Positions 17,484 through 47,960 of a stretch of 64,000 bases of DNA are shown here, piece after piece. The first letter of the stretch is position 1, and every line of letters starts with the position of its first letter. The translations under genes were made by a program, and so were the position numbers. The stretch is from NCBI GenBank assembly GCA_029261965.1, contig JAJDAH010000039.1, positions 1-64,000 of the forward strand, given 5' to 3'. The notes below the pieces were generated by a model that worked only from the letters and a program-made list of their open reading frames with translations, had not been told where the DNA came from and ran no database searches. The DNA is from Polyangiaceae bacterium (GTDB lineage Bacteria; Myxococcota_A; Polyangia; Polyangiales; Polyangiaceae).

Positions 17484-18158
17484 ATGTCTACTGCTCTCGT
17501 CACGGGTGCCAACCGCGGAATCGGTCTGGAGTTGGTTCGACAACTTCAGGCCAAGGGTCTGGACGTCATCGCCACCTGCCGCTCGAGTTCGGATTCGCTC
17601 GATGAGCTCGAGACCGGCACTCCTCCGGTTAGAGTGGAGACTGGTGTAGACGTCGCCAGCAACACCTCCGTCGCCGAATTCGGCAAGAAGCTGGGCGCAC
17701 CGAAGATCGATCTGCTCGTGCTCAACGCCGGAGTCATGAATCTCGACGTGATCTTCGATCTGTCGATCGAAAAGGTGCAGAAGCAAATCGAAGTGAACGC
17801 TCTCGGACCCTTGCGCGTCGTCGCTGCGCTGGTCGACAAGTTGGGCGAAGGGTCGAAAATCGTCATCATCACCAGCCAACTCGCGTCCATCGAGAACAAC
17901 AACGGCGGGCTCTATGGCTATCGAATGAGCAAAGCCGCCGTGAACCAATGCGGCCGCTCGCTAGCTCGCGACCTCGAACCCCGAGGCGTCGCCGTCGCGA
18001 TGCTCCACCCGGGTTTCGTCGCCACGGACATGAACGCCCATCAAGGGCCCGTTTCCGCCGAGACGTCGGTGCGAGGACTGCTCGAGCAAATCGCCGCTCT
18101 GAGCATCGAGACGACCGGTCAGTATCGAGACTTCGAAGGCGCCGAGCTTCCCTGGTAG
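17484..18158 (+). CDS. Short-chain dehydrogenase/reductase
   Basis: 224 residues. Classical SDR: cofactor loop TGANRGIG at residues 7-14, NAGVM near 82, catalytic Ser in ITSQLAS near 130 and YRMSK (YxxxK) near 149, then LHPGFVATDM. It should reduce a carbonyl or oxidise an alcohol with NAD(P)H; the second motif TCRSSSD suggests NADPH. Closest in style to the C-factor/sniffer-like SDRs; in Myxococcus CsgA is such a protein, but nothing here shows that role. ATG 17484 is chosen with CGGAGG just 3 bases before it; the longer frame from 17130 is non-coding. The stop codon overlaps the first bases of repeat copy A. Confidence 0.88.
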   Translation: MSTALVTGANRGIGLELVRQLQAKGLDVIATCRSSSDSLDELETGTPPVRVETGVDVASNTSVAEFGKKLGAPKIDLLVLNAGVMNLDVIFDLSIEKVQKQIEVNALGPLRVVAALVDKLGEGSKIVIITSQLASIENNNGGLYGYRMSKAAVNQCGRSLARDLEPRGVAVAMLHPGFVATDMNAHQGPVSAETSVRGLLEQIAALSIETTGQYRDFEGAELPW

Positions 18159-18288
18159 CGTGGTGGACCAGGAGTCCACCACACTCTGGAAAGAACCGGG
18201 ACACGGATCAGATCTGTGCCTTGGCCGTCAAAATTCGGCGGCCTCGCCCCGGAGGGGCCGCCGTAGTTTTGTAAGCAATCACGGATCC
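18157..18288 (+). repeat. Dispersed structured repeat, copy A
   Basis: About 132 bp, some 92% identical to 47224-47354 in the same orientation. Three inverted repeats: arms 18160-18168/18174-18182 with loop CAGGA; 18202-18209/18211-18218 with one G-T pair; 18236-18243/18256-18263, followed by AGTTTTGT like a factor-independent terminator. The outermost pair of the third stem is C-G here and G-C in copy B. The repeat starts at the stop codon of the SDR gene, so it could end that transcript. No coding potential is conserved between copies. Confidence 0.85.
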
Positions 18289-18306
18289 AGAGGAGTAACT
18301 CGGCGG

Positions 18307-27863: not shown

Positions 27864-30266
27864 TTGCGCACTCCTTCGATCTCGATACTCGCTCTGTTGG
27901 CTTCCGGCGTTTTGATGGGGTGCTCAAGCACTGCCGAGCCGCCACCTCCCGGAGCGGGCGGCGGAAACACCGACGCCGGAGTTGGCGGCGCGATGGCCAC
28001 CGGTGGCAGCGCCGGCACCGGGGCGACCGGCGGCTCGGGAGGCGGGAACATGGGCGGTGCGGCGGGCATGGGCATGGCCGGCTTCGGCGGAGGAATGGTC
28101 GTCTGCCTCCCGGACGCGGACGGCGACAACATTCCCGACAACGTCGAAGGTGCGCCGGACCGCGACACCGACATGGACGGCACGCCGGACTTTCAGGACG
28201 AAGACAGCGATGACGACACCATCCCCGATCGCCTCGAAGCCGACACGGCCCGCATCGGCTGCGAGGTCCCCCTCGACAGCGATCGCGACGGCACGCCGAA
28301 CCATCTGGACACCGACAGCGACAACAACACCATCCCCGATCGCGACGAAGCCGGGTTCGATGGAATGGGGAACCTGTCCGACGTCGACATGGACGCGCTG
28401 CCGGACGTTTACGACAACGACAACGACGGTGACACGCTCATCGATCTGGATGAGTTGGTCAATGGCGCGGGCGTCGACACCGACATGGACGGCGCCGACG
28501 ACCACAACGACTTCGATGCCGACGGGGACAACGTCGGCGACGGGTTCGAGGGGTTGAGCGACGCCGACGGCGACGGCCGGCCCAACTTCCGCGACCTGGA
28601 CTCGGACAGCGACACGGTTCCCGACCTTTGCGAGGGAGACAGTACCCGACCCCTCGCGGACCCGCCGCCGGACAGCGACAGCGACGGCAAGTTCGACATC
28701 ACCGACATCGATTCGGACAACGACGGCCTGCGGGACGGCGTCGAAGACGCCAACGCCAACTGCAGCGTGGAGATCGGCGAGACCGACCGAACCTTGGCGG
28801 ACACCGACGCGGACGGCGCCAACGACCTCATCGAGACGGTTCTCGACACCGACCCGAGCTGTGGCGTGTTCGGTGGCAACCCCGTCAAAGCATGCACTCC
28901 GGGCGAGGGCGGCAAGTACTTCTTCATCATGCCGTTCAACCAAACGCCGCAGCCGGCACAGCAAGACGTCGTTCTCAAGACCAACTTGAACAAGGGCGAC
29001 ATCGCCTTCGTGGTGGACTCGAGCGGCACCATGGGGCCGGCGATCGACAACATTCGCACGAATCTGAACACGATCGTCGACAGCATCAAGGCGGACGTGC
29101 CAGACGCGAACTTCGGCGTGCTGGCCCACGAGGACTTTCCCGTGCTGCCCGTTGGCCACTGCGTCGACGATCTGCCGGCGCGGCTCCCAGCAGGAACCGA
29201 TTCATTCCTGACTGGGGACATTACGATGACCCGCAACTCCGTGAACAGTCTCACCACCGGAAACGGCGTCGACGGACCGGAGTCGCAAGTCGCTGCGCTA
29301 TTTCGAGCGATCAAGGACGAGCTGATCAACTGGCCAGGCACGTGTCAGGGAGGCAGCCTCGCCGCGTACGGTCCGGGCGGGGCCTTCGGCGGACTCGGCT
29401 TCCGTGGCGACGCGCTGCCGATTCTCGTGTCCATCACGGACGCACCGTTCCACAACGGCATCTACGTCGACCAAACCACGGTCCACGACGACTACGCGTT
29501 CGGCGCAGGATTCTTCGACAAGACGTCGGCGGATCTCGTCGCCGAAATGAACGCCGTCGGTGCCAAGTTCGTGGGCATCGCCCTGAACAACGGGGGTTTC
29601 AATCGCGAGGCGGATCCCTACGACGACATGGCGTACATCACCGACGCTACGAACTCGAACGTGATGCCGGCGGCGTTCAACAGCACCCAATGCCTGACCG
29701 ACATCGTGCCGGTGCAGCCGGACGGCCCCACGGGACCGGGCATTCCGCCGACGTGCCGGCTGATTTTCAGCGCGTTCACCACCGGCGTCGGCGTGAGCAC
29801 GCGCATTGCGGACGGGGTCAAGGCGCTCCTCCGAGGCATCAACCTCGAGGTCCGGATTCTCGCGGCCAACGATCTGGCGTTCTCGAATCCGCCGACGATC
29901 CGCCCGATCGAGGACTTCGTCGACCACATCGAAGTGTTCGCTCCCGGTCAGGTTTCCGATCCGTCCGCCCCCGGCGAGTTCTGCGAAACGCTCGACATCC
30001 AGGATCTCCGGGATAATTGGGCGGATCCCTTCGGAACCGTCGTGGGACCCGACAGCTTCAACGAAACCGCCGCGGCGGTCACGCCCGGAACCCGCGTTTG
30101 CTTCCGGATCATTCCCAAGAACAACACGCTCTACCCTCAGACCAACGACGTTCAGTTCGCACGCGCCTTCTTGACCGTAAAGGCCCGCAACGAAGGCCAG
30201 ATAGAGGAGCTCGACGTCGGCGAAGCGCGCGACGTGTTCTTCGTCATTCCCCCGACGTCGCAGTGA
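27864..30266 (+). CDS. Surface lipoprotein with DxDxDG repeats and von Willebrand A domain
   Basis: 800 residues. Signal peptide ending LASGVLMGCSS (lipobox), Gly-rich linker to about 80, then roughly ten thrombospondin type 3-like calcium repeats (DADGDNIPD, DRDTDMDGTPD, DSDSDGKFD) over 85-345. A VWA domain follows with its MIDAS start VVDSSGTMG near 383. Within the domain are unusual inserts with cysteines (GHCVDD, LPARLPAG). The C-terminal 120 residues form a beta-rich region ending in a small Ig-like segment. Likely an adhesion or matrix protein on the outer surface. TTG start with GGGAGA 6 bases upstream. The 3' end overlaps the convergent TPR gene by 23 bp. Confidence 0.85.
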   Translation: MRTPSISILALLASGVLMGCSSTAEPPPPGAGGGNTDAGVGGAMATGGSAGTGATGGSGGGNMGGAAGMGMAGFGGGMVVCLPDADGDNIPDNVEGAPDRDTDMDGTPDFQDEDSDDDTIPDRLEADTARIGCEVPLDSDRDGTPNHLDTDSDNNTIPDRDEAGFDGMGNLSDVDMDALPDVYDNDNDGDTLIDLDELVNGAGVDTDMDGADDHNDFDADGDNVGDGFEGLSDADGDGRPNFRDLDSDSDTVPDLCEGDSTRPLADPPPDSDSDGKFDITDIDSDNDGLRDGVEDANANCSVEIGETDRTLADTDADGANDLIETVLDTDPSCGVFGGNPVKACTPGEGGKYFFIMPFNQTPQPAQQDVVLKTNLNKGDIAFVVDSSGTMGPAIDNIRTNLNTIVDSIKADVPDANFGVLAHEDFPVLPVGHCVDDLPARLPAGTDSFLTGDITMTRNSVNSLTTGNGVDGPESQVAALFRAIKDELINWPGTCQGGSLAAYGPGGAFGGLGFRGDALPILVSITDAPFHNGIYVDQTTVHDDYAFGAGFFDKTSADLVAEMNAVGAKFVGIALNNGGFNREADPYDDMAYITDATNSNVMPAAFNSTQCLTDIVPVQPDGPTGPGIPPTCRLIFSAFTTGVGVSTRIADGVKALLRGINLEVRILAANDLAFSNPPTIRPIEDFVDHIEVFAPGQVSDPSAPGEFCETLDIQDLRDNWADPFGTVVGPDSFNETAAAVTPGTRVCFRIIPKNNTLYPQTNDVQFARAFLTVKARNEGQIEELDVGEARDVFFVIPPTSQ

Positions 30267-47187: not shown

Positions 47188-47223
47188 ACCGGCGCAACCT
47201 GCGCACGATTTGCCGCGACCGCT

Positions 47224-47354
47224 AGTGTGGTGGACCAAGAGTCCACCACACTCTGGAAAGAACCGGGACACGGATCAGATCCGTGCCTTTGCCGTCAAAA
47301 GTGGGCGGCCTCGCCCCGGAGGGGCCGCCCAGTTTTGTAAGCAATCGCAGATCC
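47224..47354 (+). repeat. Dispersed structured repeat, copy B
   Basis: 131 bp, about 92% identical to 18157-18288. Stems: 47225-47235/47241-47251 (11 bp perfect, loop CAAGA); 47269-47276/47278-47285 (perfect palindrome); 47303-47310/47323-47330 (8 bp) followed by AGTTTTGT. The repeat lies between two minus-strand genes, the kinase and the DUF924 gene, and its terminator-like end points along the plus strand, so it does not end either gene. It might be a free small RNA or a mobile structured element. Confidence 0.85.
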
Positions 47355-47360
47355 GGGAGA

Positions 47361-47960
47361 CTAGAAAGAGGACCCGGGTTTTCCGAGAAACTCGACTTCT
47401 TCGGGCGTCGATTCTCGCCCGAGGATCGCGTTGCGATGCGGAAAACGGCCGAACCTCTCGACGATGTCGCGGTGGGCGACGGCGTATTTGACCGCTTCTT
47501 CGAAAAATGACCGGTGCTGTGCCGAAACGGAATCACGCAGCTCCTCGAACGCCCGAACGCAGGCGTTCTGCACCTCGCGGTCTTCGGCGTGCATCAGCGG
47601 CATGAAGAGAAAGTACCGCCGAATGGGTGGGAGCTCGCGCGCGTGACCCGAGCGGATGCCCTCCTGGGCGAGCTCGCGTGCCCGCGAGTCACTGGCGAAG
47701 CTCTCGGGTTTGCCGCGATGAATGTTGCGGTTGAACTGGTCGAGTAGGATCACCAACGCGAGCCGACCGTTGGCGGTCTCCTTCCACGAGTCGAGGTCGC
47801 CGGCAGCGGCGCGCTCGATCGCCTCGCCAAACGTGCGAGCAATCTCGTCGTCGACGGCCGGCTTCTTCTTCCACCAGAGCACCGACTTCTCGGCGTTCAC
47901 CTCGATGGGGTCCTCGCGGTCGCCAAACCAGAAGCTGAGCACGTCCTTTGGACTCGTCAT
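47361..47960 (-). CDS. DUF924 family protein
   Basis: 199 residues, full family length. DUF924 signatures are clear: VLSFWFGDRED at the start, LWWKKKPAVDDEI near 30, LALVILLDQFNRNIHRGKPE near 68-87, and IRRYFLFMPLMHAEDREVQ near 113. The protein is all-helical, TPR-like and cytoplasmic; the family has no established biochemical role. ATG 47960 has TAGACT 8 bases upstream and no ribosome-binding site. It ends 6 bases from repeat copy B. Confidence 0.92.
   Translation of the reverse strand: MTSPKDVLSFWFGDREDPIEVNAEKSVLWWKKKPAVDDEIARTFGEAIERAAAGDLDSWKETANGRLALVILLDQFNRNIHRGKPESFASDSRARELAQEGIRSGHARELPPIRRYFLFMPLMHAEDREVQNACVRAFEELRDSVSAQHRSFFEEAVKYAVAHRDIVERFGRFPHRNAILGRESTPEEVEFLGKPGSSF

Follow-up and report, generated by a model that had tools for sequence, protein, structure and literature searches.

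The ~143-bp repeat that occurs twice in the window (the whole 64,000-nucleotide stretch analysed here, part of a 9.6-Mb host genome in 480 contigs) has no coding capacity and is, with a probability of about 90%, a MITE (miniature inverted-repeat transposable element) derived from an insertion sequence of the IS630 family (Tc1/mariner superfamily); it would be moved in trans by an IS630-type transposase. Its copies are dispersed through the genome, have defined borders flanked by NTAG, lie at gene ends and include deletion derivatives, and one end is identical to that of a complete IS630 element. The MITE family is new; its kind, the IS630-linked MITE exemplified by RUP, is well known, and it does not constitute a new class of structured RNA.

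A preliminary description of the window had reported two copies in the same orientation with 92% identity, and comparison of one sequence with the other found them as claimed; the element itself is real at the ~131-bp extent given, but its borders are wider when the NTAG at each end is included (Table 1). Several finer details are likewise present in the sequence: the pair C18236-G18263 of stem 3 in copy A is exchanged on both sides for G47303-C47330 in copy B, stem 2 has a G-T pair in one copy and G-C in the other, and AGTTTTGT directly follows stem 3, which scores as terminator-like in both copies. A search of the window at Rfam gathering scores returned no match. By predicted folding energy the two copies reach -69.7 and -74.3 kcal/mol, whereas dinucleotide shuffles lie at about -46 +/- 4 (z -5.9 and -6.7). 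Elsewhere in the window (28160-28638) there are five imperfect 83-nt repeats that encode Asp-rich units, resembling the repeats of calcium-binding surface proteins.

Table 1. Positions of the two repeat copies of the window (A and B) and of their parts.
Feature	Position	Strand	Remarks
MITE copy A, full length, flanks GTAG...GTAA	18155..18298	+	covariance model 169 bits, model 1-143
Copy A, left NTAG (GTAG)	18155..18158	+	TAG serves as stop codon for the short-chain dehydrogenase gene upstream (gene end 18158)
Copy A, stem 1, formed by the left terminal repeat GTGGTGGAC with its inverted copy	18158..18184	+	
Copy A, stem 2: CACGGAT-CAG-ATCTGTG, resembling inverted pieces of subterminal sequence	18202..18218	+	
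Copy A, stem 3: GC-rich hairpin, A-run 5', T-run 3', terminator-like	18229..18271	+	
Copy A, right terminal repeat CACGGATCCAGAGGA	18280..18294	+	
Copy A, right flank, NTAG-type (GTAA)	18295..18298	+	
MITE copy B, full length, flanks CTAG...CTAG	47222..47364	+	covariance model 171 bits, model 1-143
Copy B, stem 1	47225..47251	+	
Copy B, stem 2	47269..47285	+	
Copy B, stem 3, terminator-like; pair G47303-C47330, G.G mismatch G47301/G47332	47296..47337	+	
Copy B, right terminal repeat CGCAGATCCGGGAGA	47346..47360	+	
Copy B, right CTAG	47361..47364	-	TAG on the minus strand terminates the DUF924 gene 47361-47960(-)

The repeat is far from confined to the two copies first noticed, since pattern, blastn and covariance searches found dozens more, and ~70 sites are present in the host genome when short ends are included. 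With one copy as the query, blastn located ~40 distinct places, the other listed matches being palindromic arms on the opposite strand. The right-end 15-mer GATCCAGGGGACTAG has 67 matches in the host genome at up to 2 mismatches (7 for the reversed control) and the left-end 15-mer has 45 (9 for the reversed control); most of these copies are also detected with a covariance model. About 20 copies are near-complete (143 bp). In internal-deletion forms one or both of stems 2 and 3 are missing (L021, L025, L026, L028, L030 and others), and a recurrent short form with a 57-58-bp core consists of ...GACACGGATC joined to the terminal ...CAGGGGA (L029, L032-L036, L038). Fragments with the right end only are numerous, clearly outnumber copies with the left end only, and have varied 5' break points (L047, L048, L050-L053, L067, L074, L076 and others); in some 5'-truncated copies an NTAG stands exactly at the break (L047, L079, L081, L084, L085), and others break at the stop codon of a neighbouring gene (L048, L053, L074, L078). 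Some of this right-end excess, but not all, can be put down to convergent genes whose stop codon lies in the right CTAG, which is thereby kept (L048, L052, L053, L062, L066, L070, L074), and simple DDE transposition does not explain the many right-end-only copies, which counts against the IS630 reading. Retrotransposition, with a fixed 3' end and variable 5' truncation, was considered and rejected, the breaks at gene stops fitting equally well a later deletion between genes in which the right CTAG survived as a stop codon.

The element was found in the host genome only when 59 genomes (the host and its relatives) were searched at the DNA level, and no match was obtained in plasmid and phage records. 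Among 379 genomes of the phylum there were no full copies, and the search returned weak matches to the GC-rich hairpin and one end relic (genome G448). Two other repeats of the host genome touch on the family. One is a chimeric element (L066:1144-1158, contig C448) with the left end CTAGTGCCTTAGAGCTG and the right end of the MITE family of the window. The other, also dispersed and ~210 bp long, has CTAG as its boundaries and reads CTAGTGCCGCGTCTCAAGAGTCGCGA...GGTTACGATTGTTACTTTCGAGACAGAGCACTAG; it abuts MITE copies (left flank of L006, contig C224; L080:2549-3001, contig C318) and is likely another CTAG-targeting mobile repeat.

Complete copies read CTAG-TGTGGTGGACC...GATCCAGGGGA-CTAG, with terminal inverted repeats that are imperfect (CTAGTgtggTGGAcC / CTAGTccccTGGAtC). 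Similarity between copies stops sharply at NTAG, outside of which the flanks are unrelated, and nearly all flanks are CTAG or GTAG. In flank counts curated by hand, with one case joined from the contig ends L011 and L013 by their common internal variants, a left flank of GTAG or GCAG is accompanied by a right flank starting with G in five of six cases (G on both sides in L008, L011/L013, L014, L028 and L157), compared with 0 of 29 otherwise (Fisher p=1.8e-5). Such a correlation between the left and right N is the mark of a duplicated target to which the N belongs, and NTAG thus appears to be duplicated; as read from the flanks, the G/G correlation implies a putative duplication of 3-4 bp, with CTAG/CTAG sites unable to distinguish 2 from 4. 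Characterised IS630 elements duplicate TA only (2 bp), and the longer duplication implied for the MITE is a point of difference from that family and an argument against the IS630 reading.

The link to IS630 comes from the right end of the element, a 19-mer of which had a single match among ~85,000 species genomes, in an Acidobacteria MAG contig. The match coincides with the very end of a complete ~1.19-kb insertion sequence (L151:1903-3091), the other end of which is also CTAGTCCCCTGGA, and which encodes an intact 363-aa transposase (258.8 bits to the NCBIfam IS630 model NF033545, cut-off 100; Pfam PF13358 DDE_3, 6e-25). The right end of the MITE is identical to one end of this element over 22 bases. 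One 19-mer match alone could be due to chance, but its placement at the precise end of an entire element tells against that. An end shared with a known insertion sequence is what the preliminary description had named in advance as evidence against its own reading of the repeat. The left end of the MITE diverges from L151, agreeing with its ends only as CTAGT....TGGA, which weakens the match. Taken with other IS630 insertion sequences (L166-L168, L192), L151 shares with the MITE the use of CTAG targets and, at one end, the CTAGTCCCCTGGATCTGTGATT of the MITE consensus, and differs from it in the divergent left end and in having the transposase gene that the MITE lacks.

Relatives of the host carry elements of the same type, related IS630 genes being present in 41 of 194 of their genomes. 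The IS630 elements of relatives in the family and order have inverted repeats that start with CTAGT (for example CTAGTGTCCTGAGTCCGTGA, CTAGTGTCCTGCATCCGTGATTAC and CTAGTCTCCCGTCTGAG), and in two relatives with multi-copy IS630 all of the copies compared lie in CTAG, immediately beyond which the sequences are unrelated. The end relic of genome G448, which belongs to the same class as the host, reads CTAGAAATCACGGATCCAGGGGACT and is close in sequence to the L151 end. A preference of IS630 for TA within CTAG is attributed to Tenzen and Ohtsubo (1991) as cited in PMC2170065. An intact parental IS630 (ends CTAGTGTGGTGGACC / CTAGTCCCCTGGATC) was not found in the 480-contig assembly of the host, which also counts against the IS630 reading; a search of the host genome with the L151 transposase gave nothing at E<=1e-20, and the sole IS630-type trace there is a short DDE_3 remnant (L165) without clearly matching ends. 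Presence of the parental insertion sequence in the same genome is usual for MITEs, but not required, and because the assembly is so fragmented a collapsed multi-copy insertion sequence could be missing from it.

Genes around the copies were called with a codon-usage gene finder trained on the host genome. At the 58 sites that could be placed, the neighbouring genes are convergent in 32 cases, co-directional in 24 and divergent in two, the convergent share being well above that of the gene gaps of the window (12/55; p=3e-8). By hand count, the gene next to the element ends on the terminal TAG at roughly 30 of 76 candidate sites, and both window copies provide the TAG stop of a neighbouring gene. 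CTAG is scarce: base composition predicts about 206 occurrences in the window, and there are 46. In the most likely mechanism, the ends CTAG|TGTGGTGGACC... and ...GATCCAGGGGA|CTAG would be recognized by an IS630-type transposase supplied in trans, which would cut out the element and paste it into CTAG or GTAG, leaving NTAG on each side. Some of the few available CTAG sites would be at gene ends, TAG being a stop codon, and the duplicated NTAG would preserve the stop codon upon insertion there, so that the insertion may persist. As an insertion that keeps the stop codon would have little cost, enrichment at the 3' ends of genes and between convergent genes would follow; a bias toward convergent regions is shared by RUP, BOX, SPRITE and IS elements (PMC3049150). 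The hairpins look partly built of inverted pieces of the end sequences, and stem 3, which resembles a bidirectional terminator, may be tolerated or kept for that property.

The preliminary description had taken the two-sided change in stem 3 as a sign that an RNA structure is under selection. A functional RNA, whether a small one acting in trans or another structured type, whose three-stem fold is selected and which is only incidentally repeated, is very improbable, despite a fold far stronger than that of shuffled sequences. Across 21 aligned copies, 95.6% of the pair cells of the three stems are standard pairs and five pairs are changed on both sides versus 1.1 expected by shuffling, but all five are singletons, pairing is lost in 25 of the 43 distinct departures, and one-sided transitions show no clear preference for G-U over A-C (13:6, p=0.08). 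The C-G/G-C exchange is seen in copy B alone among the 21, and two pairs outward of it copy B has the uncompensated G.G mismatch G47301/G47332, which together weaken the inference from the compensatory change. Replication of a palindrome in which one arm is copied from the other could yield the same double changes. Copies without stem 2, stem 3 or both are common, and the lack of an Rfam match in the window and the IS630 ends further disfavour a structured RNA. There is a weak signal for retention of the stems, mostly stem 3, and nothing like that of a conserved RNA. Selection for RNA structure is therefore not borne out; among the three origins that had been offered, a mobile structured element is the right one, a terminator-like insertion is plausible for stem 3, and a small RNA is disfavoured.

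Domestication as a bidirectional terminator, in which an element that arose as a MITE is retained because its stem 3 now stops transcripts of convergent genes at many of its sites, is possible though doubtful: stem 3 with its A-run and T-run scores as terminator-like in both window copies, 32 of 58 sites lie between convergent genes and pneumococcal SPRITE is a published parallel (PMC3049150), but the T-run is just 4 long, forms without stem 3 occupy similar places (L026, L036), and convergent regions accept insertions in any case, little being damaged there. The host genome also encodes three Y1 transposases of RAYT-like size (285-318 aa; L152, L153 and L154 on contigs C260, C8 and C105), and GTAG or CTAG stands beside a hairpin that directly follows the left NTAG, as might be expected of an element of the REP/REPIN type, with a Y1 (RAYT) transposase as its mobilising enzyme. 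To our knowledge Y1 enzymes make no target duplication, which the equality of the flanking N on left and right indicates here; no copy of the element is near any of the three Y1 genes and the right end is an IS630 terminus, making this origin extremely improbable. The NTAG correlation, which suggests a 4-bp duplication, would suit a MITE of another DDE family that duplicates CTAG/YTAR, such as an IS5-type element like MITEPsy1, which duplicates CTAG or YTAA (PMC3189936), with the resemblance to an IS630 end arising by chance. This is improbable given that the single match falls exactly on an IS630 terminus with a matching second end, that IS630 relatives in the family of the host carry related ends, and that the same-class genome G448 has a relic similar to the L151 end. 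An extension of the IS630-derived MITE interpretation, in which the MITE duplicates four bases (NTAG), targeting of stop codons hands the gene a new TAG stop together with a ready-made bidirectional terminator, and the right-end excess might indicate one-ended or 5'-truncating insertion, is rather unlikely in its entirety.

The precedent for an IS630-linked MITE is RUP of the pneumococcus (~107 bp; PMC2229807). Like the repeat described here, RUP is a short, non-coding, intergenic sequence with many copies and with ends that match an IS630-family element (IS630-Spn1), is enriched between convergent genes and has a stable predicted RNA fold (PMC2229807, PMC3049150). RUP has an unrelated, AT-rich sequence and a parent, IS630-Spn1, that is frequent in the pneumococcus, whereas the present MITE is GC-rich, targets CTAG/GTAG and has no parent found in the host assembly. 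The Correia/NEMIS elements of Neisseria are similar in their size classes (~107 and ~155 bp), in having TA at the termini and in their structured transcripts (PMC2229807), and different in sequence, host and length of the terminal inverted repeats (24 bp in Correia). SPRITE likewise has a hairpin followed by a T-run, near the 3' ends of genes between convergent genes (PMC3049150), but no recognised insertion sequence ends, and in the present MITE the terminator-like hairpin is one of three stems. In the papers searched, no description of such a MITE family in myxobacteria was found.

A structured repeat with a compensatory change thus reduces to a MITE once all of its copies and one distant insertion sequence end are known. 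The length of the target duplication and the use of the terminator are mildly interesting side questions in an otherwise ordinary family. The family clearly illustrates how stop codons can serve a transposon as safe landing sites when its host genome has few CTAG, and it may supply convergent genes with ready-made terminators.
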